Source: a virus. From it: a DNA stretch of 64,000 nt. The first letter of the stretch is position 1. Each line of letters begins with the position of its first letter. Where the stretch lies: positions 1-64,000 of the IMG/VR virus record IMGVR_UViG_3300011113_000621. One strand, written 5' to 3'. This document shows, piece after piece, positions 7,720 through 22,548 of the stretch. The notes beneath the pieces are model-generated. The model was given only the letters and a program-made list of their open reading frames with translations. It searched no databases and was not told the origin of the DNA. The position numbers and the translations under genes were made by a program.

Positions 7720-7995
7720 TCAGGAACCTTGGTCGTAGTCCTCCTGATTTCCTGGGTCCTCATATTCATCAATTTGGTCAATTGGGACATATATACCTAC
7801 CACCGTTACACGTCCACAGGCGGTACACTCGTTGACGGCGCCTGGAGATAGTTGAATTGGCACGTTTACACTTACCAGGCGCGTGATGATATTACCTCTT
7901 TCATCAACGCTATCTGGCTCCCAAACTGAGTTTTCGTCAATCCAACAACGCTCACATATTGGGACAAGTTCCTCCTCGCCGCCGCGAATACTCAT
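7720..7995 (-). CDS. Small zinc-ribbon protein
   Basis: 91 aa with two CxxC pairs, ICERCW near residues 13-18 and ECTACG near 56-61, which together form a likely zinc ribbon. The C-terminus is strongly acidic (DQIDEYEDPGNQEDYDQ). It follows the C5-methyltransferase with a 4-base ATGA overlap, so the two are translationally coupled. Small zinc-ribbon proteins like this are frequent in actinophages and have no assigned role; binding of nucleic acid or a protein partner is possible. Confidence 0.65.
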   Translation of the reverse strand: MSIRGGEEELVPICERCWIDENSVWEPDSVDERGNIITRLVSVNVPIQLSPGAVNECTACGRVTVVGIYVPIDQIDEYEDPGNQEDYDQGS

Positions 7996-9230
7996 GTGTA
8001 CATCTTCTTTGCAGCTTGACGTGAGAAACCGCGATCTGTATCAATTAAAAATTCTCTATCACCAATTTTTTGTGCATCGCCTTGTTGTGGATTTCCCTCT
8101 AGTGATTCCTTAAGTGCCTTTGCAATCCATGAGGCTGCTTGCACTGGAACTGCCTTTCCCCACGTTGCCGCGAGCGCAGAGTAATCCTTTGATCCTTCAA
8201 TGTCCCAATCATCAGGAAGTCCCTGCATGCGTGCGCACTCTCTATGAGTTATAAGTCTTGGCTGTGTCGGGTGAATAACATGCTCTAACGCAGAGCCAGT
8301 TAACACGTTACACCAGTGATCTTCCTTCCATCGATAAGGTTGACTAAAGCCTAGCTTAAACTCTCTACGCTTAATACGTGGAGCCACATCAATCCACGTT
8401 TGAGGAAACGTATTATCGTTCATTTCCACTGCAAGCTTTACAGCCTTTCCAAGATCTCCGTTTCCTGGCCAGTTTTCGTTTCCTATTATGTCGAATACAT
8501 CTTTTATTCTTTGAACATGTATGTTGTTTTTTCCAATGTGCCCATCTACCTTTTGACTTTTAGATCTAAGATGTTTAACATGCTTTGATGGCGCAGGCTC
8601 AGTGTAAGGTTGTTTACTCCAACTTTGTGGCATTTCTGCAAGATCACCAATGATGTCCATAATCCTTGGAAGCTCTTTAGTCTTTGGCGTTGTAACGTCG
8701 AACTTAAGTCCTTTTCTTACAGCAACCCAAAAGTATCTTGGACGATAAGAAAATCCACCAAGTTGTAGGTTATTGTGTTTAACGTGATAAAGATCATACT
8801 TTTTACCAGAAACTTCCTCGACCATATCGCGATACTTAAGCATTACATCTCTACCTTGAGTATAGGCTTGTTGAACACACTCAAAGACGACCGCTTGAGG
8901 TTTTACGCGTCCTGCGTATTTCATAAATGCCCTTGTGTGTTCATGCGCCTTTGCATCAATTCCTCTATTACTCGGCCCTGACCATACCGACCATCCTGAG
9001 CATGGCGGACAACCAAGAACTATGTCTGTCTTCTTTGTTTCCCACTCGCTTGCATCATCTGAGAAGTTTGCTATCCAATTGTTTCCCATATGAGTTCTGT
9101 TGTTTTCAACTACCTGGTTTCCAAAGTTTAATGTCCCTGTGCGATGAATCATTTCCATTTCATTTTGCACAAAGCCAAGACTCATAAAGCCAGCAAGACC
9201 ATTGCAGTCAACAAACGTCATTTGTGACAT
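7992..9230 (-). CDS. DNA cytosine C5-methyltransferase family protein
   Basis: 412 aa. Motif I is degenerate (FVDCNGLAGFMSLGF, 7-20), motif IV is GCPPCSGWS with the nucleophile Cys77, motif VI is FECV (116-119; ECV instead of the usual ENV), motif VIII is in the SYRPRYFWVAV stretch, and motifs IX-X appear as RLITHRECARMQGLP and ATWGKAVPVQAASWIAKAL. The order and length fit a single-chain 5-methylcytosine methyltransferase. It may protect phage DNA from host restriction; the target cannot be read from sequence. No cognate endonuclease is adjacent. The Asn-to-Cys change in motif VI is unusual and could alter activity. Its leader has the ACGAGAGGG ribosome-binding motif. Confidence 0.85.
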   Translation of the reverse strand: MSQMTFVDCNGLAGFMSLGFVQNEMEMIHRTGTLNFGNQVVENNRTHMGNNWIANFSDDASEWETKKTDIVLGCPPCSGWSVWSGPSNRGIDAKAHEHTRAFMKYAGRVKPQAVVFECVQQAYTQGRDVMLKYRDMVEEVSGKKYDLYHVKHNNLQLGGFSYRPRYFWVAVRKGLKFDVTTPKTKELPRIMDIIGDLAEMPQSWSKQPYTEPAPSKHVKHLRSKSQKVDGHIGKNNIHVQRIKDVFDIIGNENWPGNGDLGKAVKLAVEMNDNTFPQTWIDVAPRIKRREFKLGFSQPYRWKEDHWCNVLTGSALEHVIHPTQPRLITHRECARMQGLPDDWDIEGSKDYSALAATWGKAVPVQAASWIAKALKESLEGNPQQGDAQKIGDREFLIDTDRGFSRQAAKKMYT

Positions 9231-9307: not shown

Positions 9308-9610
9308 TTAGCTAGTTTTTTCTGCCTGGGTTCTTCCTACCTCATACCCGCAACCAGCGTATCCTGCAATATCAATCCAGGTATCAGGTTGAAACCCAGA
9401 CTTATTTGCGTATCGCGCGATCTTTAACCCAATCATTAACATTCCCACGTCCTCCTGGGTAATGTTTATCCCAAGAATCACTGACCATATTCTTGCAATG
9501 CGATCAAAGTTTTCCTCAGGACCTCCATATTGAATGTCACGGTCACCTACAATGATGCGCGCAGCTTCACGCAATGCCTCTACTCGATATAAAGATTTCT
9601 CATCACTCAT
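9308..9610 (-). CDS. DUF6378 domain protein
   Basis: 100 aa. The sequence LREAARIIVGDRDIQYGGPEEN followed by FDRIARIWSVILG, ITQEDVGMLMIGLKIARYAN and DTWIDIAGYAGCGYEV matches the DUF6378 pattern, a small helical protein widespread in phages, usually in DNA-metabolism regions. No function is established. It closes the run of small genes that starts at the dUTPase-like gene and lies two bases after the next small gene, so it is cotranscribed with it. Confidence 0.8.
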   Translation of the reverse strand: MSDEKSLYRVEALREAARIIVGDRDIQYGGPEENFDRIARIWSVILGINITQEDVGMLMIGLKIARYANKSGFQPDTWIDIAGYAGCGYEVGRTQAEKTS

Positions 9611-9611
9611 A

Positions 9612-9812
9612 TTATTCCTCTATCTTTGTCTTTACAATTACATATGCCATGTATCTTTTATCATTTTCTGTAGATGCAAGCATGCGCACCTCAGCGCCTA
9701 ATGGAAGTTTTGCGTCTTCATCTTCATTTATTCTCTTCCACTCAGCTAGTACTTTTTCCTTTACCTGTGAAATAGTTTCACCTGACACATAAAATTCAAT
9801 AGACGATCTCAT
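9612..9812 (-). CDS. Hypothetical 66-aa protein
   Basis: A short alpha/beta protein beginning MRSSIEFYVSGETISQVKEKV and ending AYVIVKTKIEE. No motif, membrane segment or cysteine is seen. It overlaps the preceding gene by ATGA and is followed two bases later by DUF6378, so it is a real member of this tightly packed operon. Function unknown. Confidence 0.65.
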   Translation of the reverse strand: MRSSIEFYVSGETISQVKEKVLAEWKRINEDEDAKLPLGAEVRMLASTENDKRYMAYVIVKTKIEE

Positions 9813-10228
9813 TGAATTCGTTTCTGCAGTTGATAAGGAGCGTAGTGAGCGCCATCAAGAATTGGTTCCTTGTCATCAGTTGACTTAAACACAATATCTC
9901 CGTAGCGCACGGCAACAACGCGTCCTCTTCTTCCATTGTGAATAACTCCTGTACTACCGTCATAGGCATCAGCCTTTACGCGAACCTCATCACCTACGGT
10001 AATTGATCCAGGTTGAGCATCAATCCATTTTTCAGTTGGCGGCTCAGGAACAATTGAGTGTGTAAGCGCAAGTTGTGGAAACAACGCAACGACCTCCTTT
10101 ACTTGTGGATTAGAAAGATCAAGCGTTTCCCACGTCTTTAGTAACTTTAAGATGGCGTTTCCAACACCAACCTTTACACGTGCACCTTGCATTTGTTGGC
10201 GCACCCAGTCATAATTTACCTCAGGCAT
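9809..10228 (-). CDS. Hypothetical protein with KOW-like segment
   Basis: 139 aa. The N-terminus (about 1-60) is helical; residues about 75-125 read SITVGDEVRVKADAYDGSTG then GRRGRVVAVRYGDIVFK, which resembles a small beta-barrel of the KOW/SH3 type often used for RNA, DNA or protein contact. It overlaps the dUTPase-like gene by 8 bases and the next gene by 4. I do not recognise the family; the KOW comparison is by pattern only. Confidence 0.6.
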   Translation of the reverse strand: MPEVNYDWVRQQMQGARVKVGVGNAILKLLKTWETLDLSNPQVKEVVALFPQLALTHSIVPEPPTEKWIDAQPGSITVGDEVRVKADAYDGSTGVIHNGRRGRVVAVRYGDIVFKSTDDKEPILDGAHYAPYQLQKRIQ

Positions 10229-10706
10229 TTCCGTCTACCTCCTTTGGGAGACATTTTGCACACATATCTGGTGATGCGCCTCGACCAACGTCGTCAATTG
10301 CACGGGCGCAGAGCGCACACTTGACGCCAATATCTTTAATCTTGTATCCGTCTAACTGCCTTTGTTTGTTTCGTTCCATCTTTTCAATGTAAAACTTATC
10401 AAGCATTTCATCTGTTCCACCAGCGGCAACAATTATGTTTGCGACAAAGTGTAGAACGTCAACGGCCTCCTTGATAATTTCCTCGCGGTCTGCGTATGGC
10501 TTATCGTGTTGCCAAGGCTTCCATGATATTGCCTGGCGCATCTCTGCAAGTTCATCGTCAATGGCAAGCATATTCCAACGCATGTACTCAATGAGACGAC
10601 GAATATTAGCGTCCTTGTCGCCTGACATATCCTCAAAGTTTATGTAATAAACGTTTGTTTGTAGATCCTTTGTGCGTTTAATCCAGTTATTAAACAATAT
10701 TCCCAT
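10221..10706 (-). CDS. All-alpha dUTPase/dCTPase-like NTP pyrophosphatase with zinc tail
   Basis: 161 aa. Helical core with the MazG/dimeric-dUTPase signature ExxE...ExxD: E52-L-A-E55 and E80-A-V-D83, plus EYMRWNMLAIDDEL before and FYIEKMERNKQRQLDGY after. Members hydrolyse dUTP (some phage ones, such as T4 gp56, dCTP) to the monophosphate. The C-terminal 35 residues add two CxxC pairs (C130/C133 and C149/C152), a zinc-binding extension not part of the core family. It lies directly upstream of small genes and downstream of two putative glycosyltransferases. In a hydroxymethylcytosine pathway a dCTPase would remove unmodified dCTP and feed dCMP to the hydroxymethylase; that role is inferred. 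Confidence 0.8.
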   Translation of the reverse strand: MGILFNNWIKRTKDLQTNVYYINFEDMSGDKDANIRRLIEYMRWNMLAIDDELAEMRQAISWKPWQHDKPYADREEIIKEAVDVLHFVANIIVAAGGTDEMLDKFYIEKMERNKQRQLDGYKIKDIGVKCALCARAIDDVGRGASPDMCAKCLPKEVDGNA

Positions 10707-10711
10707 GACTA

Positions 10712-11737
10712 CTATTTTCCTTTCGTTGCGTATAGGTTTAATGCGTCAGATACAGTCACCGCAGCATCTCTACGAGACGGAATTGACTTAGCATATTCTT
10801 CTCTTTGTGCGTGAGCGACTTCCACGCGTTTGTCAATGGGAAGAGTTTCAATGTGAGATGCAAGATATGTCCATGAATCTCCAATGGCTTGACTCTCTCG
10901 CCAATCTGTAGCTACGGGAGTAGAGGCATTAAGCGACTGTATTAGTCGATATGACCACCAAGTACCTCCTGTTTGATACGGACTAATTAAGGAGCCAATG
11001 CCAGAGCTTATTTGTGAGAATACCTGCTCGTCGTTCCAACCTTTATGCCACTTCATTGGAACTGACTGATAAGCAAGCATTCCAGTAACTTCCTTTATCC
11101 AGCTTGTGTTGTAATTTTCTACTACCCATTTATCACGCTTTTCAACTTCAATTGAGTCCTGCGTAGATAGTATGTATGAGTCCAGGTTTATTGCACACAA
11201 AGACTCAGCTGCACCTGCAGGTAATTGAGAAATTATCTTGCCTGTCCCAGACCAAGGAAGTGCTGGATACAAGGTAGTTGGCCACTCATCATTAAGAAGT
11301 CGATTTACAACCGCAAGTAAGTTTGATGCCATACCTGGAACTGTTGCATACATAAAACCTTTACGATACGAGTAAAAAGGCTTTGTTAAGTTATCTGGAG
11401 TTTTTACGATTGCACGTAAGCTCGCAGTTATGCGCGTTGGCTCTGGCGCATCAATAAAAAAGCGCAGTTTAGACGACTCTTGTAAAAGATCTATTAAGTT
11501 AAGTGCGCCATATACACGATTTGCACTTAAACTAGTTAATGGGCTAAGTCCAATAAGCACAAGATCGTATTGATCAAGGTCATTTATGTTCCATGAAATA
11601 TCAGGATCATCTTGAACTACCTCATGCCCGAGCTGAGAAAGAACATTACAAATAAGTCCAGCAAAAGATAGCGAGCGTTTATTGGCCTCGGCTGATGCGT
11701 GAGGCGCACTCATTCCTGTAATAAGTATCTTACTCAT
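10712..11737 (-). CDS. Putative GT-B glycosyltransferase (paralogue 2)
   Basis: 341 aa. N-terminal Rossmann-like region (KILITGMSAPH, then LGHEVVQDD and DQYDLVLIGLSPLTSL), C-terminal LISPYQTGGTWWSYRLIQSL followed by STPVATDW. That last region is laid out like the donor-binding half of a GT-B glycosyltransferase, where a Ser/Pro-rich loop and a following acidic position hold the nucleotide sugar. It shares its order of motifs with the next protein, so the two are tandem paralogues. The family is not one I can name with certainty. Given its position in the DNA-metabolism operon beside nucleotide-modifying enzymes, a DNA-base glycosyltransferase is the working guess. Confidence 0.55.
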   Translation of the reverse strand: MSKILITGMSAPHASAEANKRSLSFAGLICNVLSQLGHEVVQDDPDISWNINDLDQYDLVLIGLSPLTSLSANRVYGALNLIDLLQESSKLRFFIDAPEPTRITASLRAIVKTPDNLTKPFYSYRKGFMYATVPGMASNLLAVVNRLLNDEWPTTLYPALPWSGTGKIISQLPAGAAESLCAINLDSYILSTQDSIEVEKRDKWVVENYNTSWIKEVTGMLAYQSVPMKWHKGWNDEQVFSQISSGIGSLISPYQTGGTWWSYRLIQSLNASTPVATDWRESQAIGDSWTYLASHIETLPIDKRVEVAHAQREEYAKSIPSRRDAAVTVSDALNLYATKGK

Positions 11738-12954
11738 GCAAGTGTACCATCAGCATTTCTTTTTAGTCCTTTGTCCTCTTGTAGTGCGCGATTTATGATG
11801 CGACTGCAGTGTTCTACAAACGATGAGTATTGAGGAACAAACGGAGTAAACGCGTCACGTTGCGCCTGAGCTGCCTCGATAAGTTGAGCATCACTCATCT
11901 TTTCAACATCTGCAATTTTAAGTTTATACGCGTCACCTAATGGATCACCTTCACCTTTGTCAGTTACAAGAATTGATCCTACGTGCGCGGTGTAAAGAAA
12001 GCGACTGCGCCACCAGCCAGATCCAGCGTGCGGATATGGTGGAGAAAGAATTCCCCAATGTTGATTGTAAAACTCCAACACGTCCTTCTCTGTGTCAAAT
12101 CTTTGTCCGCCAAGTTTGCGTATTAACTTGCGACTGCCAACAATTTCAACTGGCCAAGTTAGATTTTTCTTTTCAAGCCAAGTATCATGTGGCATTAACG
12201 CACCTAAAACCCATGCGCGTTTCTTAAGTGACTGATTTAGTGGGACTACAGGACTTAGCGTTGGGACTATTGTTGATGTCGGGTCTAATGCCTCAATTGG
12301 ACCAAGTTCCTTTGGCATACGTTTACGCACAATAGATCTATCACCAAACGAGTACATAGGACAAACTGGAACCATACCAGCGGACCAACGCTCAATTAAA
12401 AGATCCTCGGCAGCTTGAACAAGCCTTTTCTCCCAGGGTTTAATTGTTTCATCGTTATCCATCATGTAATAGCGTTCAATGTAGCACTTCTTTGCCGCAT
12501 CTGGACTTACTGCACGCACTCTTTCAAGTGCAGCCTCAATGTCTGCACGACTAAAATATGTTGCGCCTTCATCACCGCGATGTTCAGTTCCAACAAGCAG
12601 ATGTTTGTACAACATCTCAGGTTTGCGAACTAGTGCCTTTGCTCCGTTGAACACAGTATTAAACTGCCAATCATCAAAAAATCCAACACAAGGTAGTCCA
12701 GATGACAGTGTGTAAAGTGCACCCATTGCGCCTTGTCTGCCGTTAAGCGAGTTTAATGGTGCAAGATTGACCCAGGCAACATCATATGAAGACAAGTCCT
12801 CGCCGGGAGTTACCTTACGCCAATCAACTTCATGACCTAACTCACGCAACGCCTGTGCAATAGACGCAGGCACGTCAATTTTTTGTATCGTCCTTTTTTC
12901 AGTGTTTATCTGCAGTGCAGTAAACCCTGTCATTAAGACAGATAACTTTTTCAT
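11734..12954 (-). CDS. Putative GT-B glycosyltransferase (paralogue 1)
   Basis: 406 aa. Shares with its neighbour the N-terminal layout (LSVLMTGFTALQ, LRELGHEVDW, SSYDVAWVNLAPLNSLNGRQ) and the C-terminal ILSPPYPHAGSGWWRSRFLY then GSILVTDKGEGDPLGD. These look like the two halves of a GT-B fold, with the second motif at the donor site. It is longer by about 65 residues, mostly in the middle. The gene is preceded by an unusual long inverted repeat and by an AGAGGAG ribosome-binding site, and its stop overlaps the start of the paralogue by four bases. Glycosylation of modified DNA bases is inferred from context; glycosylation of another phage product is the alternative. Confidence 0.55.
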   Translation of the reverse strand: MKKLSVLMTGFTALQINTEKRTIQKIDVPASIAQALRELGHEVDWRKVTPGEDLSSYDVAWVNLAPLNSLNGRQGAMGALYTLSSGLPCVGFFDDWQFNTVFNGAKALVRKPEMLYKHLLVGTEHRGDEGATYFSRADIEAALERVRAVSPDAAKKCYIERYYMMDNDETIKPWEKRLVQAAEDLLIERWSAGMVPVCPMYSFGDRSIVRKRMPKELGPIEALDPTSTIVPTLSPVVPLNQSLKKRAWVLGALMPHDTWLEKKNLTWPVEIVGSRKLIRKLGGQRFDTEKDVLEFYNQHWGILSPPYPHAGSGWWRSRFLYTAHVGSILVTDKGEGDPLGDAYKLKIADVEKMSDAQLIEAAQAQRDAFTPFVPQYSSFVEHCSRIINRALQEDKGLKRNADGTLA

Positions 12955-12970
12955 AGTACTCCTCTCGTGC

Positions 12971-13030
12971 TAAGTGTGTTTAGCGCGTCACCTACGCATA
13001 ATATACATAGGTGACGACTAAACGCACTTA
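12971..13030. repeat. Long imperfect inverted repeat with TATATTAT in the loop
   Basis: The left arm (12971-12994) and right arm (13008-13030) pair over about 23 bp with one mismatch and one extra base; the arms begin TAAGTG and end at TCACCTA on each side of a 13-base spacer. The right arm includes the stop codon of the DUF669 gene. On the minus strand the loop contains TATATTATG, which could serve as a -10. No U-tract follows. Terminator, operator and replication-origin roles are all possible. Confidence 0.8.
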
Positions 13031-13552
13031 GAACGGAGAGGCAGGTGCCGCCGCTACTGGTGCAGGAGCTGCTGCTGGTGCAGGTGCGGGTGCGGGTGCA
13101 GGCGCTGGTGCAGGAGCTGCTGCTGGTGCAGCAGATGCTGCTGCCGCTGCAGCCGCGTAGTACATCTTGATTTCATTTTTCTTGTTACCTTGCCAGGTAC
13201 GTGAACCTACCTGTGCACGGAACGAGCGTCCTTTTAATGCTGCTTCAATTTGAGCATTTGAAGGATTAGATGCAAAGAACTCGCGGCCAAGACCAAGAGC
13301 TCCCATCTTGCGGAAGAACATTCCGAGAGCCGCAGAGTTATCCGGTGTAACTACTAAGTTATCCCAGATTAGTCTCTTTGCGTGAGCGCCAGTTGTTACC
13401 TGCGCCTTAACTGCAAACATAGTCTTGCCTGATTGCGAGACCTTTGCTGTAGCCTCTACGATGGTTAGATCATAATCGCCATCGGGTAGAGGTTCATAAC
13501 TTGCTGATTCACCTGCGTCTTTAACGAGGTCGCCCCAGTTGAGAGTACTCAC
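13028..13552 (-). CDS. DUF669-like ssDNA-binding protein with Pro/Ala tail
   Basis: 174 aa. Residues 1-130 follow the DUF669 pattern: LPDGDYDLTIVEATAKVSQSGKTMF, then KRLIWDNLVVTPDN, a middle FFRKMGALGLG and RSFRAQVGSRTWQGNKKNEI. DUF669 proteins occur beside Sak4-type recombinases and are thought to be ssDNA-binding. The tail from about 132 is almost wholly Ala and Pro in PAPA repeats, an extended linker-like end instead of the acidic tip typical of SSB. It lies three bases from the ATPase gene, supporting a recombination or replication partnership. Confidence 0.75.
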   Translation of the reverse strand: MSTLNWGDLVKDAGESASYEPLPDGDYDLTIVEATAKVSQSGKTMFAVKAQVTTGAHAKRLIWDNLVVTPDNSAALGMFFRKMGALGLGREFFASNPSNAQIEAALKGRSFRAQVGSRTWQGNKKNEIKMYYAAAAAAASAAPAAAPAPAPAPAPAPAPAAAPAPVAAAPASPF

Positions 13553-13555
13553 TGA

Positions 13556-14326
13556 TTAGCCTTTCTGTTCTGTTGGTTGTGGTTGTATTGGTGTCTTTGG
13601 ACCAAACACGACATCAAGCATACGCTCAATGCCGAGATTCTCTTGTTCTACGATTGCGCCAAGACGACCTTGAACGCGCTCGCCAGCTTCGTACTCATTG
13701 GTACGTTCTACATACATGCGTCGCACTTTATACGGAGGTTGCAGTGGATCTGGGTTTGGTAAAGATTCGACTGTCAACGCTCCAAGAATATCATAAAAGT
13801 ATGGTGCTTGGATTGCTAACTGTCCTTGTAGGTATGGACGAGCACGTCCATCACTTGAGCGTGCCATTGCAGTTAATACAACAGCTTCGAGTGCGTTAGT
13901 TGGATGCATAGTTAAGTCACGTAGGTCGCGTAGTAGCGCACCCATGTGGCGAAGTAGTTCACCCCACTGTTGCATTTTCATTTGTTCATTGCCTGCAATT
14001 GAGTCCATACACTTAACCTGCAACTCAGATATTGAGTCAATGATTAAGCTTTTGAACTGGTGTTTACCTAGTTGCAGCCATTGATACGTCTTTAGAACTG
14101 TATCGTAATCACGAACGGTGACAACACACGTATCCCAGGTACCATCTGCGACAGGCGGTTCCTCGCGCAGTGGGTCCCAATACTTAACTATGATTGGCAG
14201 AAATCGATGTCCGCCTTCAACGTCGAGCATTAGTCGGGGATACGGTGCTGTGACAGCAAAGGTGGACTTTCCAACTTTAGACTCTCCATACACCATCATC
14301 GTGAGGGATCGTTGTACTTGTGACAT
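13556..14326 (-). CDS. Sak4-like AAA ATPase / recombinase
   Basis: 256 aa. Walker A GESKVGKS at 14-21, an LMLDVEGGHRFL segment, Walker B-like FKSLIIDSISEL and a TAMARSS sensor-like stretch, all in the order of AAA_24/Sak4 proteins. Sak4 is a RecA-core ATPase that helps anneal and recombine phage ssDNA, usually with an SSB-like partner encoded next door, which here is the DUF669 gene. It follows the Cas4/RecB-like nuclease by three bases. All motifs needed for ATP hydrolysis are present. Confidence 0.82.
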   Translation of the reverse strand: MSQVQRSLTMMVYGESKVGKSTFAVTAPYPRLMLDVEGGHRFLPIIVKYWDPLREEPPVADGTWDTCVVTVRDYDTVLKTYQWLQLGKHQFKSLIIDSISELQVKCMDSIAGNEQMKMQQWGELLRHMGALLRDLRDLTMHPTNALEAVVLTAMARSSDGRARPYLQGQLAIQAPYFYDILGALTVESLPNPDPLQPPYKVRRMYVERTNEYEAGERVQGRLGAIVEQENLGIERMLDVVFGPKTPIQPQPTEQKG

Positions 14327-14329
14327 GCG

Positions 14330-15259
14330 TCACTCACTTCCTTTCTTCTCTTCTGTTCCGTAGTATCCATATGGATCTCCTACATCGAACATTTCACTGA
14401 TTGCTTGTTCGGCGGCGCTTCCGTCGTCTAACAGTGGGCATACAGTGAAAAACTGGCATTTCCATTTGCAGTCGCGACTTGGGCGCGGATATGCAACGTA
14501 GCGATGATCTGCACCTGCGTCAAGGTCATCGCGTGTTTTCATTAGGTCAGTTAAAACTCCATTTACTCTTTGCCAAAATGAACGTAAGGCAAAGACATTG
14601 TGACGTACCTCAATTTGATCAAAAAATGGTGGACGTGCATTTGCGCTTCTTTTTACCTTTTTTAACAAGGTAAATATTCCGCCTTCGCTTCTTTCACCGT
14701 CTTTATTTTGTGCTGTCTCAAGTAACATATATGTAAGTATCTGCTCATTCATGTGCGCCATTGCACCAAAGTCTGTAAATGATCCACCGACAGTCTTAAA
14801 GTCGCGGAACATACGCACACCATCAGCCTTACGACGAACACGCATATCAATCTTTCCTTGAAGCTCTACGCGTCCCTCAAGCATTGGCATTGAAATAATT
14901 TCCTCGGTAGAGATCATCTCTAGCTCTGAGTCAATTCCGTTTTCCTCAACCCATTGCAGATAACCTTCAAGCATGATGCGTCCAAGCTCTGCCTCAGAGT
15001 CAAGGTCGTAAGTATCACGAAATGAATCCTCTAATGCCTTGCGGTCCGTTGCAACTAATATAGAGTGCGCCTCTAAAAGTGGAATACCTTTCGAGTAGTA
15101 GTCATCAAGTGCCTGGTGAATGCGGCTTCCAAGTGCGAGCGCGCCTGTCATCTGTTGTGTTTTAGGTTGTAAACGTCTGTAGTAACTTAGCCACCACTTA
15201 CGCTTGCAGTCCTTATAGGTTTGAACTTCAGAGTTGGAAATCTTTATAGGCTCTGTCAT
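14330..15259 (-). CDS. PD-(D/E)XK nuclease, Cas4/RecB-like with Fe-S cysteines
   Basis: 309 aa. ISNSEVQTYKDCKRKWW near the start supplies the first cysteine (Cys18) and the opening helix of the RecB/Cas4 family; GALALGSRIHQALDDY supplies the motif-I His. The catalytic core is LQGKIDMRV (Asp) then FRDFKT (the D-x-K). The C-terminal SRDCKWKCQFFTVC has the remaining three cysteines for a 4Fe-4S cluster. Such nucleases resect DNA ends in recombination. Its gene overlaps the SNF2 helicase gene by 4 bases and precedes Sak4 and DUF669, forming a recombination set. Confidence 0.85.
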   Translation of the reverse strand: MTEPIKISNSEVQTYKDCKRKWWLSYYRRLQPKTQQMTGALALGSRIHQALDDYYSKGIPLLEAHSILVATDRKALEDSFRDTYDLDSEAELGRIMLEGYLQWVEENGIDSELEMISTEEIISMPMLEGRVELQGKIDMRVRRKADGVRMFRDFKTVGGSFTDFGAMAHMNEQILTYMLLETAQNKDGERSEGGIFTLLKKVKRSANARPPFFDQIEVRHNVFALRSFWQRVNGVLTDLMKTRDDLDAGADHRYVAYPRPSRDCKWKCQFFTVCPLLDDGSAAEQAISEMFDVGDPYGYYGTEEKKGSE

Positions 15260-17061
15260 AGTTTTCCTGCCTTATCATCTTTAAGTAAGCTAAGTAGCTT
15301 GTCTTTGTCACGAACAATTTGTTCGAAGTTGTCTGCCTTGGTTTCAAGAACTTGAATCACCCGTTCCTCAATAGTTCCCTCAGTAACATAGTCTGTCACA
15401 ATAATTGAGTCATGAATTTCTGATCCAATACGGTGTACACGATCCAAGGCCTGCTTGTGATCAACAAGTGACCATGGACGTTGCAACATGATTAGGCGAC
15501 GTGCGGCAGTTAGTGTAATACCAACTCCACCTGCCTGGGCTGTAAAAAGAATCCACTTGATCTTGCCTGCTTGAAAATCATCAACCGCTTGTTGACGTTC
15601 GTCCTCGCTTTGAGATCCAGTGATAAGACCGTGTCGTATATCTTCCTTAGTCAGTGCAGCGCTTAAAAGATAGATTAACTGTCTTGAGACTGCACATACG
15701 GCGACTGAGTCATTTCCAAAGTCACCATTTTTTATATCGTCCATCAATGCCTCAACCTTACAAGATGGATCTGCAAGAACAGCTTTAATCTCGCCTGTAG
15801 TTTCGTTTGTTGCCATTTCGGCGTATGAACTTGCAAACTGTAAAAGACGAATTGTTTGTGTAAGCGCAGATGGTGCGGTAAGCGCCTCTCCGCCTTCTAG
15901 CTCTGCAATCATCATGTCACGCATTTGGTCATAAGCTTTCTTTTGCTTAGTTGACATCTCTACATCACGACGTTCAAACATCATCTCTGGTAGCCATGGA
16001 AGTACCTTTGCCTTAAGCATACGACGCATACGTGGATTTATTGCTGCATAAAATTCTTGTTCCATGTGAGGCTTAACACCTAAAACCATCATGCCGCCAA
16101 AGGCATTAAGCATGGTGTTAATCATTCTGTCAACCCAACGTGTTTTACTTGGCCACTCATTTGGGCTTAGCCAGTGAAGAATTGACCACAGATCTAAAAC
16201 ATCGTTTGCAATTGGTGTTCCTGTAAGTGCAAATCTAATATCCGCATCACCTGTGGCAGCCCAAAGCGCACGAGTCTGCTTTGACTTTGCTTCCTTGGAC
16301 CTGTGAATTTCGTCAGCTATAACTGCCTTAAAATCAATGTTGTTTAGCTCACGCGGGTGAACTTCGCAGCGATTTTCCGACACCTTTTCATCGTGTCCGC
16401 CGCAGGACTGACACCTTGCTAGAGCAATGGACCCATAACCTGCCAGGCGTGAATGTGTTCTTAAACCTTCCCAGTTAATTACGTAAACATCCGCTGGTTC
16501 TTCAAATTGCTTACGGCGTTGACCTGCGCTTCCTTTGATGACTTGCACGTTTACGTCTGGCCACCACTTTACAAACTCACGCTTCCAATTTTTCTTTAGG
16601 GTATTAGGGCAAACTACCAAGGCAGGGAATATATCCTCACCTGAGTCCTTAAATGCCTTTAATGCGCGTATTGCCTGGGCAGTCTTACCAAGGCCAGGCT
16701 CGTCGGCAAGTAGGGCACGTCGCGCAGTCTTCAAAAATGCAACGCCAGCTCTCTGGTGGGGAAATAGGTCCGCGTTAGAGAGGTCCTCTAGGGTCTCTAG
16801 GTCACGTAGAGTATTCGCTGGGGTAATCCGATTGGCAAGCTCATTGGTGGCCCAGTCGGTCAATTTAGGGCCAATAATTAGGTCATTTCTAAAGGTAGAT
16901 CTCAACGCGAGACACGTTGCCCAGCTCAATGGGACTGTCCACACGCTCAGCTTTGTGTCCCACTTTGCACCAGGTAAGCTTTTACAAAGTTCCTTAAAGC
17001 GCCACTCAGCATTGATTACTACGTGCTTGTTTGTATCGTCAAGCTCTACGTTCACAGACAC
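15256..17061 (-). CDS. SNF2-family helicase/translocase
   Basis: 601 aa, GTG start at 17061. A HARP-like N-terminal segment (15-45, FKELCKSLPGAKWDTKLSVW), then Walker A EPGLGKT at 121-127, a four-ligand C/C/C/H insertion (ARCQSCGG...NRCEVH) that could bind zinc, Walker B DEIH, LTGTP, and in the second lobe MLQRPWSLVDHKQALDRVHRIG. It is a complete two-lobed SF2 translocase of the SNF2/SMARCAL1 type, which remodels or reverses branched DNA. It heads the recombination set and has its own promoter-like sequence (TATAAC at 17089-17094) and an ACGAAAGGA leader. Confidence 0.9.
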   Translation of the reverse strand: MSVNVELDDTNKHVVINAEWRFKELCKSLPGAKWDTKLSVWTVPLSWATCLALRSTFRNDLIIGPKLTDWATNELANRITPANTLRDLETLEDLSNADLFPHQRAGVAFLKTARRALLADEPGLGKTAQAIRALKAFKDSGEDIFPALVVCPNTLKKNWKREFVKWWPDVNVQVIKGSAGQRRKQFEEPADVYVINWEGLRTHSRLAGYGSIALARCQSCGGHDEKVSENRCEVHPRELNNIDFKAVIADEIHRSKEAKSKQTRALWAATGDADIRFALTGTPIANDVLDLWSILHWLSPNEWPSKTRWVDRMINTMLNAFGGMMVLGVKPHMEQEFYAAINPRMRRMLKAKVLPWLPEMMFERRDVEMSTKQKKAYDQMRDMMIAELEGGEALTAPSALTQTIRLLQFASSYAEMATNETTGEIKAVLADPSCKVEALMDDIKNGDFGNDSVAVCAVSRQLIYLLSAALTKEDIRHGLITGSQSEDERQQAVDDFQAGKIKWILFTAQAGGVGITLTAARRLIMLQRPWSLVDHKQALDRVHRIGSEIHDSIIVTDYVTEGTIEERVIQVLETKADNFEQIVRDKDKLLSLLKDDKAGKL

Positions 17062-17088
17062 CTAAAAGGTTCCTTTCGTCATTAAGTC

Positions 17089-17094
17089 GTTATA
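17089..17094 (-). promoter_or_regulatory. Promoter -10 (TATAAC) and ACGAAAGGA leader of the SNF2 gene
   Basis: On the minus strand TTAGTATAACG precedes ATGACGAAAGGAAC (17071-17083), which ends about 10 bases before the GTG. The -35 is weak. The ACGARAGGR ribosome-binding form recurs at 9234, 12961, 21954, 62618 and 62808. Confidence 0.5.
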
Positions 17095-17108
17095 CTAACA
17101 GGTTTTGA

Positions 17109-17142
17109 TAAAAAAGTAACTACATTTTGACCTAGTATGTAG
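17109..17142 (-). terminator. Weak intrinsic terminator after the RuvC-like gene
   Basis: CTACAT and ATGTAG (17120-17125 and 17137-17142) form a 6-bp stem with an 11-base loop, followed on the minus strand by TTACTTTTTTATC. Only five bases separate it from the RuvC-like stop. The stem is short, so read-through is likely. Confidence 0.45.
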
Positions 17143-17146
17143 ATTT

Positions 17147-17611
17147 TTATTGGAGCAGGCGCAAGGGCTTCCATCCTAACTTTACACAGCGCAAAAGACC
17201 GTGGCGAATCGCATCTAACGCGTGTCCGTCACCGCCCTTATGCCAATATTCCAACTTTTTCAACTTAGGATTATCAAACATTGCCTTGGCGTCCGCTGGA
17301 GACTGGAAGATAATTGAATCAGGATCTAATCCACTATCTAGCATTATCTGTTTTAGAACGCCAATTTGCTCAAGGCTATAAGGTGCCTGTGAGTTGCGCA
17401 CCGTTTGTGCGTTTATGATAAACCTTTCGCAAACTACTTGTATTGCTATGTTACCTACCTTTGCGGTATTTAGTGCCTCACGTATTGGCTGAGCGTATTC
17501 TTTCATTTGATACTCGCCAGACATTATAATTTTTGGCTCGTCTCCAAGGTTTAAGGAAATCAACGCAATTCCACTTGCCTTGCCAGGGTCAACTGCTAGT
17601 ATATGCATCAC
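17147..17611 (-). CDS. RuvC-like Holliday-junction resolvase
   Basis: 154 aa with an RNase-H-fold layout: ILAVDPGKASGIALI at the start with Asp8, VVCERFI with Glu62, and GDGHALDAIRHGLLR at 127-141 with Asp133. Those acidic positions match the catalytic triad of RuvC-type phage nucleases. Its expected role is to resolve branched DNA before packaging. Length is typical. The gene overlaps the DNA polymerase stop by four bases, so it is translated with the replication enzymes. Confidence 0.8.
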   Translation of the reverse strand: MMHILAVDPGKASGIALISLNLGDEPKIIMSGEYQMKEYAQPIREALNTAKVGNIAIQVVCERFIINAQTVRNSQAPYSLEQIGVLKQIMLDSGLDPDSIIFQSPADAKAMFDNPKLKKLEYWHKGGDGHALDAIRHGLLRCVKLGWKPLRLLQ

Positions 17612-19434
17612 TTATATTTTTCTCCCCAGTTTTCCATAGGCCCGTCTATTCCTGCAGTAAGAGGAACATCCCAGCCTTGCGTAGTTGTCATGCACTGCTT
17701 AACAATGTTTTTAATTTCTTCAACGTCCTTCCTTGGCGCGTTAAGAACAATTTCATCGTGTACTGGAACTATGAGAAGTTCAGTTAAGTCAGCTTGATCT
17801 AACTTAACAAGGTTTGCCTTAAATACCTCGGCAGCGCCTCCTTGGATTAAATAATTCACCAGTGTGTAAACTCGGTCTTCATCGCACGGAAGGCGTCTGC
17901 CTGTCCATGTATATACATACCCTTGACCTTCTGCCTTTAGGCGACGCATTCCAGCATCTTCAATTTGGCGTTGAAAGTGCGACATTCCAGGAAACCTTGT
18001 ATCAAAAGCATCTGATACAGATCTCATTTGCCCTTCTTGTACTCCAGCTGTAATTGCTTGCTTCGCGACTCCAGCTCCATAAAGACGACCGTATACCGTT
18101 CCTTTAATAAGGTTACGACGCTTATCTGAGCGTTGCATATTTGGATCGTTGTAGATTTCTCTACCAATTTCCGTAAACGGATCTGACCCAGTAGCATCAG
18201 CTCTATTGAATAGGTTGATGAGATTTGGATCTTGCGAGAGCGAGGCAAACATTCTGAACTCGACTTGGTCAAGGTCGCTGGTAACAATGACATGTTCATC
18301 GTCCTTTGGGATAAATGCCGTGCGAACAGTGTCATCACCCTTAGGCAATGTCTGCAAGGCTGGATTTTGTATGCTCATACGACTCGTGCGAGCGCCAAGT
18401 GTTTTTACGGAAGGGTGAACTACTCCGTTTACGTTATCACTTAAGAAGTTTGAAAAATAAGTGTTTGCAAGCTTGTCTGCCTTACGTTGTTTTAACACGA
18501 TTTCGGCAAGATTTTTTACCTCGTCGTTTCCGTTAATGGTAAGTAGCTTTAATTGGTCCTTTGTTGCAGATTTTTGTCCTGTAGGTGTAAATTCTGTAAT
18601 TTCCGCGCCAAGTTTTTCAAAAAGACGCACTAGTTGAATGTTACTTGATATGGAAGTGCCGTTGTAGGTCTGCTTAGCCCAGTCTTTTACCGACTGACTG
18701 TAATCATTTAGCTCGTCATACTTTCTTTTAGAGTACTCAAGGTCTACGCGTGCTCCATTGATCTCCATGCGCGTAACGATCTTGCGTGCAGCCATTTCAA
18801 GTTCGTAAGCGCGGTTATATGGACCCGTAGGACCGCACTTTTCATAAAACATCTCCCACAGACGCATTGTAAGCACTGTATCAAGTGCTCCGTATGCCCA
18901 AAACGGTTCAAAGTTTACTGGAACTGTTCCCCATGTCCAACCATTTTCAATAAGCTTAAGGTCTAAGGTATCTTGCAACGCAACTGCGCGGCCATCAACG
19001 TGTAGTGCGGCAAGTTGCTTTAACGCACCAGATCCTAAAGGGTCAATTATGTGTGCCATAATCATAGTGTCGTGTGACCTATGCCATGGAATGTCCCAGC
19101 GTGATTGAACTGCAAACCAACGAGCCTCAAATGCTATGTTGTGACACACTAAAGGTCCATCAAACTTGTCCATAGCCTCGTAGAAAACACCAGCCCACTC
19201 TTGCCAAGGAATAGACCAACCTTGTTGGCCATCTCCGACTTGAACAAGACGTAGTTGACCGTGCCATGGAGATAGCGCATCACTGCGTTGACCACCTGGA
19301 CGCTCACCAGTTTCTGTATCAACTGCAATTGCGTTGTGTGGGCGTCTTTCACCGAGCCAACGTATAAAGGCATTAGCCTTTTCTACGCTGTCTACAAGGT
19401 GAAGCTTGACGTCGCCTAGTCCGCTATCTGTCAT
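17608..19434 (-). CDS. Family A DNA polymerase with 3'-5' exonuclease
   Basis: 608 aa. The exonuclease domain has VDTETG (Asp39, Glu41), CHNIAFEARWF (97-107) and YGALDTVLT (181-189, Asp185). The polymerase has motif A SDLDQVEFR (Asp387), O-helix RRNLIKGTVYGRLYG (Lys444, Tyr448) and motif C PVHDEIV (Asp560). The 5' nuclease of bacterial Pol I is absent, as usual for phage replicases. It would copy phage DNA; incorporation of modified dCTP would be tolerated at the primer terminus by design if hypermodification is real. No primase or DnaB helicase is in the window. Confidence 0.93.
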   Translation of the reverse strand: MTDSGLGDVKLHLVDSVEKANAFIRWLGERRPHNAIAVDTETGERPGGQRSDALSPWHGQLRLVQVGDGQQGWSIPWQEWAGVFYEAMDKFDGPLVCHNIAFEARWFAVQSRWDIPWHRSHDTMIMAHIIDPLGSGALKQLAALHVDGRAVALQDTLDLKLIENGWTWGTVPVNFEPFWAYGALDTVLTMRLWEMFYEKCGPTGPYNRAYELEMAARKIVTRMEINGARVDLEYSKRKYDELNDYSQSVKDWAKQTYNGTSISSNIQLVRLFEKLGAEITEFTPTGQKSATKDQLKLLTINGNDEVKNLAEIVLKQRKADKLANTYFSNFLSDNVNGVVHPSVKTLGARTSRMSIQNPALQTLPKGDDTVRTAFIPKDDEHVIVTSDLDQVEFRMFASLSQDPNLINLFNRADATGSDPFTEIGREIYNDPNMQRSDKRRNLIKGTVYGRLYGAGVAKQAITAGVQEGQMRSVSDAFDTRFPGMSHFQRQIEDAGMRRLKAEGQGYVYTWTGRRLPCDEDRVYTLVNYLIQGGAAEVFKANLVKLDQADLTELLIVPVHDEIVLNAPRKDVEEIKNIVKQCMTTTQGWDVPLTAGIDGPMENWGEKYK

Positions 19435-19924
19435 TTACGTCCTTTGTTATTGTTACTTCTATATTACACTGTAAAAAGTACTCTACGGTCTCATCAGGAA
19501 GGCGATGAGACGCACGAGTGCCAATTCTCATAACAACACGACGTATTCCAGCGTTTGATATTAACTTTGCGCATTGATAACATGCTGCATCAGTTATGTA
19601 TATGGTTCCACCTTCAACGCGCGAGCGATCTACATATAAAAGTGCATTTGCCTCCGCATGTATTGACGGGCAGGAATCATACGTATTTGTCAAAGGAACT
19701 ACTCCTTGAGCGCGTGGGCACCATTCAATACAGTCACCTTCAACCGCAAGTGTCGCAGCGGGTCCGTTGTATCCTGTAGATGAGATACGTTGACTCTTTG
19801 AGACAACAACTGCACCTATTTGCGCACGACTACAGCGTGAACGTTTGGCAATTGAGTCTGCCACCGACATCCACGTTTCATCCCAGGAGGGTCTAGTTAG
19901 ATGATTCAGGTGGTCCTCCAACAA
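19424..19924 (-). CDS. dCMP/CMP deaminase family enzyme
   Basis: 166 aa. Zinc site HAE at 89-91 (His89, Glu91) with C115-x2-C118, the WDETWMSVADSIAKRSRC opening and GYNGP, all typical of phage dCMP deaminases. It converts dCMP to dUMP for thymidylate synthesis. The reading frame's TTG at 19924 is used as start; an RBS-like GGAGGA lies inside the first codons, so a slightly later start is possible but the conserved RPSWDE must be kept. It overlaps the polymerase and the upstream small gene, so it belongs to the nucleotide-metabolism operon. Confidence 0.85.
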   Translation of the reverse strand: MLEDHLNHLTRPSWDETWMSVADSIAKRSRCSRAQIGAVVVSKSQRISSTGYNGPAATLAVEGDCIEWCPRAQGVVPLTNTYDSCPSIHAEANALLYVDRSRVEGGTIYITDAACYQCAKLISNAGIRRVVMRIGTRASHRLPDETVEYFLQCNIEVTITKDVNDR

Positions 19925-20093
19925 TCATGCTGTTAAAAAGCTTGCTAATTAAAAACATAGCTTCCCTACGAGTAAACCCAGCCGCCTGCAGTTCAGTGTA
20001 CATCTCATGAAGTTGAACCATGGCAGCCTTCATTGGGCTTTCATACATGTCTTCAATTTCACGTTTTAATTTTTTCATCTTCTCTTCATCCAT
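19893..20093 (-). CDS. Small helical hypothetical protein
   Basis: 66 aa from the ATG at 20093, chosen over an upstream start at 20117 because AAGGAA lies about six bases before it and the ATGGATGA overlap with the upstream gene is tight. The protein is helical, rich in Lys, Glu and Met (EEKMKKLKREIEDMYESPMK), with FTRREAMFLISKLFNSM and no known domain. It bridges the hydroxymethylase-like gene and the deaminase, overlapping both, so it is part of that operon. Function unknown. Confidence 0.65.
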   Translation of the reverse strand: MDEEKMKKLKREIEDMYESPMKAAMVQLHEMYTELQAAGFTRREAMFLISKLFNSMIVGGPPESSN

Positions 20094-20952
20094 TTGATTT
20101 TTCCTTATTCTTCTCAATGGCGCGTATCATTGCACTAGCATACCATCCTTCAAAGGGGTGAAGTCTATACCGTAACATTGTCTCTTCTATATGCTGAGCG
20201 GCAGTTAACGCGCTTAAGGCATATGATGAAACTTGCTGCCAAGTTAATCCAGTGATGGCTGGAATATCCTCATACTTGTCTGTGTACTTTAACTTATCAG
20301 CCATATCATAGTGTTGCTCGTAGATATGAAGAGATCCAACGTGGTGTGTGTAGTTTCCAGGCTCAATACCTAACACAGACGCAATTGCAAGTTGAACACG
20401 CGTAAATTGAAAGAAGTCATACGCGGCTCCAAGCCACACATCGTTCGAGCGCATAAATACAGTCATGTTTAACTTATTGTCACGTATTCTAAATTGGTGA
20501 AGTATCGTGCAGGGGTAGTCACGTTTCTTTGGAAGTAGATCGAGTTCAGGATTCCATATCGTAACAACTGCCTGTCTTGTGTCTGGGTCCTGCCTTAGTC
20601 TTTCAATAACCTTTTCATATTGGCCATTAGTTCTTAGACCATATGCGCCATGAAACAGTCCGTTGTCCTCAGCGTAGTTCTTAAATTGCGGGCCAACTGC
20701 AATGACAAGTTTTGGCGTTGATACTCCAGCGAGAAGTTGACACGCCTCAACCGCACCAATACCTGGAACAGTTCCGCGTCCTACACCTAATGGTAAGGTG
20801 TTCTTTACGTCATCAATGCGAATTACCGCGTCCTCGATCTCACGGGTCTTCATTCCGCGCGGAGCGGTTTCTCGACCGTGCTCTAAGACGTGTTTAACAA
20901 GATCAACGTATCCGTTAACTCCGTCTGGTATATTTATTATCGCAGTATCCAC
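20086..20952 (-). CDS. Thymidylate-synthase-fold dCMP hydroxymethylase (putative)
   Basis: 288 aa, GTG start with AGGGAGAG upstream. LFHGAYGLR (99-107) and DTRQAVVTIWNP carry the phosphate-binding arginines, YPCTILHQF holds the nucleophile Cys148, RSNDVWLG (168-175) and HHVGSLHIYEQH (203-214) complete the TS fold. The key difference is Asp179 in LGAAYDFF, where thymidylate synthases have Asn (E. coli Asn177, also 31 residues after the Cys). Asp at this position is what lets T4 gp42 (Cys148, Asp179) bind dCMP, and Asn-to-Asp changes in TS shift preference to dCMP. I therefore call a dCMP hydroxymethylase or methylase, folate dependent. A TS with odd specificity is the alternative. It overlaps the kinase fusion gene. 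Confidence 0.8.
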   Translation of the reverse strand: MDTAIINIPDGVNGYVDLVKHVLEHGRETAPRGMKTREIEDAVIRIDDVKNTLPLGVGRGTVPGIGAVEACQLLAGVSTPKLVIAVGPQFKNYAEDNGLFHGAYGLRTNGQYEKVIERLRQDPDTRQAVVTIWNPELDLLPKKRDYPCTILHQFRIRDNKLNMTVFMRSNDVWLGAAYDFFQFTRVQLAIASVLGIEPGNYTHHVGSLHIYEQHYDMADKLKYTDKYEDIPAITGLTWQQVSSYALSALTAAQHIEETMLRYRLHPFEGWYASAMIRAIEKNKEKSNG

Positions 20953-21950
20953 TGGCTCTCCCTGTCATATCGTAGTGATTGCTTAAATATCTCGTGCCCG
21001 TAATCTAGCTTGCGTGCGTTAGAGAAACGCCTTACATATTGCGGATGAGGAAGAACAACGTATTGGTGTTCCTTAAATCCATGAGCCTTTAGTCCTTTTT
21101 CTGCTTGGCTCCCAAGTGCAATTATTCTTGGTCTTCTTAATACCTGCCACAACTCGTCAACCTGCGTAACGTGCTCATCATTTACATTTATAATTCCCAT
21201 GGTCTTCCAAGAGTTACCTGGAAGAGATGATAACAAGAAATCACCAGAGTTTCCATCAACAGGCATAAATGGTAGTATTGTCTCCTTACCGTAAGCTTCC
21301 TTTATATTTTGTCTATCTCCAACAAGTAGTACCTGCGCGTCATAACGTCCAATGTACCAAGGAAATTGCTTAAGACTAGCTGCCTTAGTTTCCGCGTAGT
21401 ATGAGTTACTTATTATTTTTTCTGCAAGCATGGGAATATCATGTAGAGATTCGCTTGACGGGTTTAACATCTCGAACTCAGTGGCAACCTCGTCTGCCGC
21501 AAGTCGATATTGACCAAGGATCTTGCCAAGCTCATCACTAGTTACGTAATCGTCACCGCGAGATGAAAGACGACGTTGAATCACGTCTAAAGGTTGATAG
21601 AGCCAAAATTGATGAACACCGCGAGAGGCAAGAAAGAGTTCAACCCAACGCCAGCCCGCGACACCAAGTAGACCGTATCCGTCTTTATTATACTCGGGGC
21701 GTTTTAATGGAGAATATGTTTTTTCACCCCAGTGCCAACGGTCCGCGATCACGTTAGTAGCAGTAAAGTTACAGTTTTCTACAGATGTAACATAGTCTTG
21801 TAAAACCCAGCGACGGGTCATTTCTTGCGGCTTACTTTTATGAAAAAATTCTAGTTTCTTGTTAGGCTGAATTAAAAGTAGACCTTCTTTTATAGCGTCT
21901 ACAAGAGTAGATTTGCCAGAAGCATCTGTGCCCTCTATTATTATAAACAT
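20937..21950 (-). CDS. dNMP kinase fused to a uracil-DNA-glycosylase-like domain
   Basis: 337 aa. Residues 1-185 are a thymidylate-kinase-like P-loop kinase: FIIIEGTDASGKST (P-loop at 7-14), ADRWHWGEKTYS (69-80) in place of the dTMP-kinase DRW/Y motif and a lid-like LSSRGDD. Residues about 205-312 look like the UDG superfamily: VLLVGDRQN, NSGDFLLSS, GIINVND, RIIALGSQAEKGL and the LPHPQY motif. Such dNMP kinases in hypermodifying phages phosphorylate the unusual dNMP (T4 gp1 acts on hydroxymethyl-dCMP). The UDG-like half may bind or process the base instead of cutting DNA. It starts after a promoter-like TATAAT and an ACGAGAGGG leader, as first gene of the modification operon. Confidence 0.75.
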   Translation of the reverse strand: MFIIIEGTDASGKSTLVDAIKEGLLLIQPNKKLEFFHKSKPQEMTRRWVLQDYVTSVENCNFTATNVIADRWHWGEKTYSPLKRPEYNKDGYGLLGVAGWRWVELFLASRGVHQFWLYQPLDVIQRRLSSRGDDYVTSDELGKILGQYRLAADEVATEFEMLNPSSESLHDIPMLAEKIISNSYYAETKAASLKQFPWYIGRYDAQVLLVGDRQNIKEAYGKETILPFMPVDGNSGDFLLSSLPGNSWKTMGIINVNDEHVTQVDELWQVLRRPRIIALGSQAEKGLKAHGFKEHQYVVLPHPQYVRRFSNARKLDYGHEIFKQSLRYDRESQWILR

Positions 21951-21993: not shown

Positions 21994-22548
21994 TCATAAG
22001 TTTTCTTTTTTATGCCTATTTTTTTGATAAAAACTTCGCGGTTTGCCTTTCTGCCACTCTGACATTTTCTTACGTGTTTCTTCTGAAACTATTCTGCCTC
22101 TAGACTTGTCCCCTATCTTCCTTTTGTGCTCTTCAGATAATCGTTTTCCAGTATGAGCTGCGGCTATTTTACGTCTAGTCTCTGCAGAATGGACTCTTCC
22201 TCTTTGCCCTTCAGATACTGCGCGTCTGGCTTCTTCTGTGAATACGTACCCAGTTATTCCATCTCCGCCATCAGTTGCATTGAGAAGCTTATATCCTTCT
22301 TTCCTGTAGTTAGCAATATACTTTACTTCTAAGTCTAAAGCTTCTTCAAGTGTTAAATTGTCGTCTAAAATAGTAAAAGTTACATTGTCATAGTGCTTTG
22401 CTATCCACAAATGAATAGGGTATTTTTTATCGTATTTTGAAGATTTTTTGTGCCTATACAGTCTTTCTTCTGCCGAATGCGTAGTTACGCCAATGTACCT
22501 ATACTCTTTAGGCGCATCTTTTAGATGTAAAACGTATACACACGCCAT
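21994..22548 (-). CDS. GIY-YIG homing endonuclease with NUMOD3 motifs
   Basis: 184 aa. The GIY-YIG core is CVYVLHLKDA then YRYIGVTTHSAEERLYRHKK, with Glu in LEVKYIANYRKEGYKLLNATDGG. From about residue 95 come repeated SEETRRKI/SEEHKRKIGDKS-type NUMOD3 motifs (three or four copies) that contact DNA. Free-standing members such as T4 SegA-type enzymes move their own gene between phages. Here it sits as an intruder between structural-type small genes and the DNA-modification operon, overlapping its upstream neighbour by one base. Not part of the phage's core pathway. Confidence 0.9.
   Translation of the reverse strand: MACVYVLHLKDAPKEYRYIGVTTHSAEERLYRHKKSSKYDKKYPIHLWIAKHYDNVTFTILDDNLTLEEALDLEVKYIANYRKEGYKLLNATDGGDGITGYVFTEEARRAVSEGQRGRVHSAETRRKIAAAHTGKRLSEEHKRKIGDKSRGRIVSEETRKKMSEWQKGKPRSFYQKNRHKKENL

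Follow-up and report, generated by a model that had tools for sequence, protein, structure and literature searches.

Does a freshwater virus of actinobacteria build sugar-bearing cytosine into its DNA? This question is raised by the virus record IMGVR_UViG_3300011113_000621 (99,753 bp), the first 64 kb of which (here called the window) carry a block of genes at positions 10221-21950 for which a preliminary description had proposed a T4-like pathway that replaces cytosine with a glycosylated base made by way of 5-hydroxymethylcytosine (hm-C). Our analysis indicates that this block quite probably encodes a pre-replicative cytosine hypermodification pathway, in which hm-dC would be introduced into DNA and would then receive sugars. 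The argument rests on a fixed set of genes for hm-dCMP that is accompanied by an exchangeable glycosyltransferase (GT), with or without sugar genes, a combination for which glycosylation of hm-C in DNA is the best explanation.

The block extends from the stop of a gp56-like open reading frame (ORF) to the start of a kinase ORF, and all its genes, as well as the other module genes described below, lie on the minus strand; every gene named in the preliminary description is an intact ORF in this orientation. Its view of the virus as an actinobacterial siphovirus also agrees with the content of the record. A WhiB gene, together with nearest named relatives that are Actinomycetia phage DSL-LC01 and Gordonia phages, points to an actinobacterium as the probable host, and the tape measure, major tail and Dit genes, which are encoded along with portal, terminase and major capsid genes, would fit a siphovirus.

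The step on which any such pathway depends is assigned here to a predicted dCMP 5-hydroxymethylase with the thymidylate synthase (TS) fold (20086-20952; PF00303, E 3.9e-29), which is labelled thymidylate synthase by Pfam and PHROG, as are its homologues in Gordonia phage records. Its closest solved relative is MilA, the CMP 5-hydroxymethylase of mildiomycin biosynthesis (best PDB match, E 5e-22), to which its sequence is nearer than to T4 gp42. Residues were compared on a single alignment of the TS-fold protein with MilA, T4 gp42, RB69 ORF048c, Rgz1 gp33 and canonical TS. The nucleophile Cys148 and Asp179 are exactly as the preliminary description had claimed, and the numbering of both coincides with that of T4 gp42 by chance. 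Asp179 occupies the position of Asn177 in E. coli TS and is likewise Asp in T4 gp42 and in MilA (Asp186), which argues for cytosine as the base and dCMP as the substrate. Three residues ahead of the nucleophile (Asp145-x-x-Cys148) the enzyme has an Asp, like T4 gp42 and MilA, where TS has Leu; since an Asp or Glu at this position is a signature of hydroxymethylases (PMC6400193), activation and addition of water is expected rather than methyl transfer. Arg126 and Ser169 stand where MilA has Lys133 and Ala176, which underlie its ribose preference (PMC5175136) and neither of which is present in the aligned TS-fold protein, thus pointing to deoxyribose. None of the tested positions varies among 63 distinct homologues, and the enzyme carries the residues that determine base, sugar and reaction in a dCMP hydroxymethylase.

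Genes that would serve the supply and use of the modified nucleotide surround this enzyme. In line with the preliminary description, an all-alpha dUTPase/dCTPase of the gp56 type (10221-10706; PF08761, dUTPase_2-type, E 1.1e-11) is 31% identical to T4 gp56 and has the residues of its Glu/Asp metal motif (E52, E55, E80 and D83), and a dCMP deaminase (19424-19924) clearly matches PF00383 (E 6e-19) and PHROG 174 (E 1e-44). A family A DNA polymerase (PolA; 17608-19434; PF00476, E 3e-57) would incorporate the modified nucleotide. The predicted hm-dCMP kinase (20937-21950) is a P-loop nucleoside monophosphate kinase that matches PHROG 761, ‘thymidylate kinase’ (E 3.8e-10), and, by profile, the prophage kinase YorR (E 9e-10); the comparison with gp1 made previously holds by analogy only, as no sequence similarity to T4 gp1 is detectable (BLASTP E 1.3). 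A C-terminal domain of about 150 residues, which has a weak similarity to uracil-DNA-glycosylase (E 0.06) and an LPHPQY motif, is fused to this kinase, and the fusion is conserved in the aligned relatives.

The two tandem putative glycosyltransferases, GT406 (11734-12954) and GT341 (10712-11737), match no Pfam or NCBIfam family and are paralogues of one another (hhalign profile comparison, E 4e-36). Confident AlphaFold2 models give both a GT-B fold (predicted local distance difference test, pLDDT, of 85.7 for GT406 and 91.3 for GT341), as one would expect from the activity first suggested for them. When compared with 350,542 PDB chains, the GT406 model has T4 beta-glucosyltransferase as its match of rank 1 (1qkj, E 8.5e-6, template modelling (TM) score 0.48-0.54), and GT406 is predicted to glycosylate hm-C in DNA. 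The GT341 model matches SenB (enzymes of the SenB type being the best), a glycosyltransferase of phage HY126 and DNA-bound T4 alpha-glucosyltransferase (E 5e-4); the last of these, which was compared with the two proteins by fold only, is among the structure matches of both. A broad GT406 alignment used as a profile query led to no result, and no GT406 relative was confirmed among 84,980 bacterial and archaeal species, one genome each, in a pattern-based scan that distant relatives can escape.

That these genes belong together is indicated by their order, which is conserved in IMG/VR as kinase, TS-fold enzyme, deaminase, PolA, RuvC, SNF2, PD-(D/E)XK, AAA_24 and DUF669, followed by the first GT, GT341, the nucleoside triphosphatase (NTPase) of the gp56 type, DUF6378 and a C5-methyltransferase. 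In the window, the core replication and recombination genes that flank the GT slot (13028-17611) encode DUF669, AAA_24 and PD-(D/E)XK nuclease proteins, assigned by Pfam, and an SNF2-like helicase and a RuvC-like protein, assigned by sequence reading and from the DSL-LC01 annotation. The small genes between NTPase and methyltransferase (9308-10228), namely DUF6378 (9308-9610; PF19905, E 1e-27), a 66-residue ORF and a 139-residue ORF (9809-10228), are placed in the module with the help of synteny. This synteny recurs in dozens of viral contigs and the main genes are under purifying selection, with ratios of non-synonymous to synonymous substitution rates (dN/dS) of about 0.05-0.1 (one value out of line, for GT406 against locus L077, was set aside because of a probable frameshift in L077), so that the block is not a product of chance.

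The TS-fold contigs that reach DUF669 have a GT behind it in 46 of 49 cases, and the remaining three end at DUF669. The type of this first GT is clearly exchanged among relatives, an observation that adds to those of the preliminary description. Counted over complete loci, which are related and partly redundant and so do not give independent counts, GT406 occupies the slot in 114; another GT406 relative does so in six with a UDP-galactopyranose mutase, an arrangement also seen in DSL-LC01, and in five without it; an unrelated GT is accompanied by an APH-like kinase, an HAD phosphatase and a nucleotidyltransferase in 15, and stands alone in three. The flanking genes are unchanged across these slot types and GT341 is present in all five, while a tree built from two core proteins that neighbour the slot, complete loci being used, requires at least seven switches of GT type, where the minimum would be two. 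The kinase, phosphatase and nucleotidyltransferase set next to the unrelated GT (in the slot of L055, L062, L064 and L199-L218) is possibly a novel sugar-activation route for DNA modification.

Sugar genes also adjoin members of the GT406 family elsewhere. A UDP-galactopyranose mutase gene lies beside them in DSL-LC01 (L164, 32324-33421) and in the T4-like phage IME13 (L166, 3276-4340), which suggests furanose sugars on DNA, and in Morganella phage Rgz1 a GT406 relative is found amid homologues (74%, 50-54%) of RB69 genes proposed for the supply of UDP-arabinose. No UDP-galactopyranose mutase was found in the 99.7-kb record, and because no sugar-activation gene is paired with GT406 in the window, the donor is likely to be a UDP-sugar of the host.

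In the pathway that we propose, the TS-fold enzyme would place a CH2OH group from methylene-tetrahydrofolate on C5 of dCMP, and the kinase, together with the host nucleoside diphosphate kinase, would take hm-dCMP on to hm-dCTP. Meanwhile, dCTP and dUTP would be depleted by the gp56-type NTPase, and the deaminase would turn dCMP into dUMP. PolA would then incorporate hm-dC, and GT406 would attach a sugar to the hydroxymethyl group after DNA synthesis. GT341 would probably attach a second sugar, or act on sites that GT406 leaves; the di-arabinosyl cytosine of RB69-type phages, which have two putative transferases (PMC13390438), serves as an analogy only for such a two-step role. A constant DNA acceptor that carries a variable sugar fits the exchangeable first-GT cassette, and the swapping of sugar-attaching genes at one site suggests that these relatives alter their DNA coat to evade bacterial defences. 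We would put at about even the chances that a large group of freshwater actinophages has a two-step hm-C DNA glycan, the first sugar of which is switched by way of a cassette of 1-4 genes at a fixed site of the replication operon. If so, cassette switching would parallel serotype switching at the level of DNA, and would involve furanose sugars in some lineages.

Several findings weigh against hm-C glycosylation as set out here. At the signature position of T4 Ser94 (a Ser or Thr two before the active-site Tyr), the whole TS-fold clade has an invariant Gly (Gly102-x-Tyr104), although the Tyr itself (Tyr104; T4 Tyr96) is retained. A sequence-profile search with the GTs gave no glycosyltransferase among its PDB matches, and hhalign assigned GT406 and T4 beta-glucosyltransferase a probability of 0.3%, that is, no sequence link. 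The likeness of the modelled GTs to the T4 enzymes lies at the level of fold only, at a TM score of about 0.5, and the GT-B fold is common to many glycosyltransferases that do not act on DNA. Finally, the module contains an intact, conserved methyltransferase for cytosine, which implies that some cytosine is left unmodified or that this enzyme has another role.

This C5-cytosine DNA methyltransferase (7992-9230; PF00145, E 1.5e-24) has intact motifs IV, VI and VIII in 59 homologues, is under purifying selection (dN/dS 0.07-0.08), and accompanies the hm-C genes in all GT slot variants and in the Gordonia phages. It would have no substrate if all cytosine were replaced, and full replacement is therefore not to be assumed; the earlier statement that the phage replaces cytosine is not established. 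Partial replacement, in which hm-C, glycosylated or not, would occur alongside normal cytosine that is in part methylated by this enzyme, is a version of the pathway proposed above and not a competitor to it, and the somewhat less than even likelihood that we give it overlaps with that of the pathway as a whole. The NTPase bears on it in two ways, since its Pfam name is dUTPase and a preference for dCTP over dUTP is putative, whereas its alignment with T4 gp56, a remover of dCTP, argues for a more complete exchange.

Another possibility, which we regard as unlikely, is that hm-C is made and remains plain in the DNA, while the GTs act on the cell wall, a virion protein or a host-defence target. 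Apart from the generic nature of the GT-B fold and the SenB-type enzymes that best match GT341, this would agree with the two GT2-type genes and the amino-sugar nucleotide set that the phage also encodes (1645-6178), seemingly unrelated to DNA, and with UDP-galactopyranose mutase being classically a cell-wall enzyme, as it was interpreted in DSL-LC01 (PMC10611076). However, in nearly all loci the slot has replication genes to one side and the gp56-type gene to the other, every sufficiently long hydroxymethylase contig has a GT there, the top structural match of GT406 is T4 beta-glucosyltransferase, and its relatives in T4-like phages adjoin sugar genes.

Still less probable is that the TS-fold enzyme yields 5-hydroxy-dCMP, so that sugars would be attached directly to O5, as in RB69-type phages. 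GT406 relatives do occur in Rgz1, whose TS homologue is RB69-like, and arabinosyl-5-hydroxy-dC is described in RB69-type DNA (PMC13390438). Yet Asn170, Asp171 and Gly175 of the window enzyme are the same as in the folate-using T4 gp42 (Asp171 and Gly175 also as in TS), whereas RB69 ORF048c and Rgz1 gp33, which are homologous to enzymes of the 5-hydroxy-dCMP synthase type (PMC13390438), have Gln, Asn and Val at these positions and Glu in place of Asp145. In the alignment, the altered folate-site residues of the RB69/Rgz1 type do not appear in the TS-fold protein, a test that is our own reading of two sequences and has no published definition, and a U32-peptidase-like neighbour of the RB69/Rgz1 type was not found in the 99.7-kb record. 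Least probable of all is a thymidylate synthase or dCMP methylase in a block for ordinary nucleotide metabolism, which would agree with the database labels and with the failure to find ThyX in the virus record, but is contradicted by the invariant Asp179 for Asn and Asp145 for Leu. A route to hm-C through TET and the C5-methyltransferase was also rejected, since the record has no Tet_JBP match, although this is weak as the control gave no signal either.

Known kinds of cytosine hypermodification are the glucosyl-hm-C of T4, the arabinosyl-5-hydroxycytosine of RB69-type phages, carbamoyl-hm-C and the pentosyl cytosine of Thanatos. With the T4 system (gp42, gp56, gp1, cd, alpha-gt and beta-gt), the module has in common the hydroxymethylase residues, a gp56-type NTPase, a deaminase and two GT-B enzymes, and to this extent the combined pathway of the preliminary description stands, whereas glucose as the sugar is, like full replacement, not established. 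The term T4-like is appropriate for chemistry and fold but not for descent, as the TS-fold enzyme is nearer to MilA, the kinase is unrelated to gp1 by sequence and has an extra domain, and the GTs, the first of them exchangeable, are not sequence homologues of beta-gt; a PolA-type polymerase and the added C5-methyltransferase are further differences. The RB69-type pathway (Mosigvirus; Rgz1) likewise has a TS-superfamily enzyme acting on dCMP, two GTs, one of which in Rgz1 is a GT406 relative, and sugar-activation genes, but differs in the TS-fold active site, in its U32 gene and in ORF003c, to which GT341 shows no similarity.

The nearest counterparts are those of DSL-LC01 and the Gordonia phages GodonK, Phendrix, Forza and GMA2, which share the methyltransferase, NTPase, GTs and TS-fold enzyme (34-62%), with kinase, deaminase and polymerase shared as well by DSL-LC01 and Phendrix. 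DSL-LC01 differs in its first GT and its UDP-galactopyranose mutase, and the Gordonia phages have one or two additional GTs; no DNA modification is reported for these five phages in the literature searched. Phages with 5-carbamoyloxymethyl-dC, found by MetaGPA, similarly combine a TS-fold enzyme that has the Asp177 equivalent with a deaminase and a pyrophosphohydrolase, but carry a carbamoyltransferase in place of glycosyltransferases (PMC8670742).

What is new here is the set of distantly related enzymes, the actinophage setting, the new GT-B families and the swapped GT slot. T4-like phages that infect Gram-negative bacteria are the best-known carriers of glycosylated cytosine, and a parallel, only distantly related version would now be found in abundant freshwater actinobacterial phages and in culturable Gordonia phages. 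The exchangeable sugar cassette would offer a natural swap set for studying the evolution of DNA glycans in the face of defences that sense sugars, Type IV restriction enzymes for example; the module supplies new candidate families of DNA glycosyltransferases, and the conserved cytosine methyltransferase within it raises the question of its substrate.

Other genes lie beside the module. At 1645-6178 the window has two GT2-type genes on the plus strand and, on the minus strand, a set for a UDP-N-acetylglucosamine (UDP-GlcNAc) 3-dehydrogenase-like protein, a DegT aminotransferase and a hexapeptide transferase; this amino-sugar set, found in the nearest clade only, is probably for virion or surface glycans. 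The set (3599-6178) was rejected as a source of the DNA-sugar donor because of this restriction, whereas the GTs are general. A pyrimidine-dimer DNA glycosylase family protein (7161-7688; PF03013, which we take to be the family of T4 endonuclease V) is conserved beside the module. The ‘peptidase’ of the RB69/Rgz1 modification cluster (L219, 4493-5662; L165, 8363-9523) belongs to the U32 family, members of which include RNA cytidine/uridine 5-hydroxylation factors, and may assist the formation of 5-hydroxy-dC. Beyond the window (L168, 14169-16205), the genome encodes a protein that, as judged by reading its sequence, resembles a ribonucleotide reductase. Similar small ORFs that resemble GIY-YIG homing endonucleases occur at 21994-22548 in the window and at 12634-13176 in L167, one of them directly upstream of the kinase gene, and related ORFs are present in some relatives.

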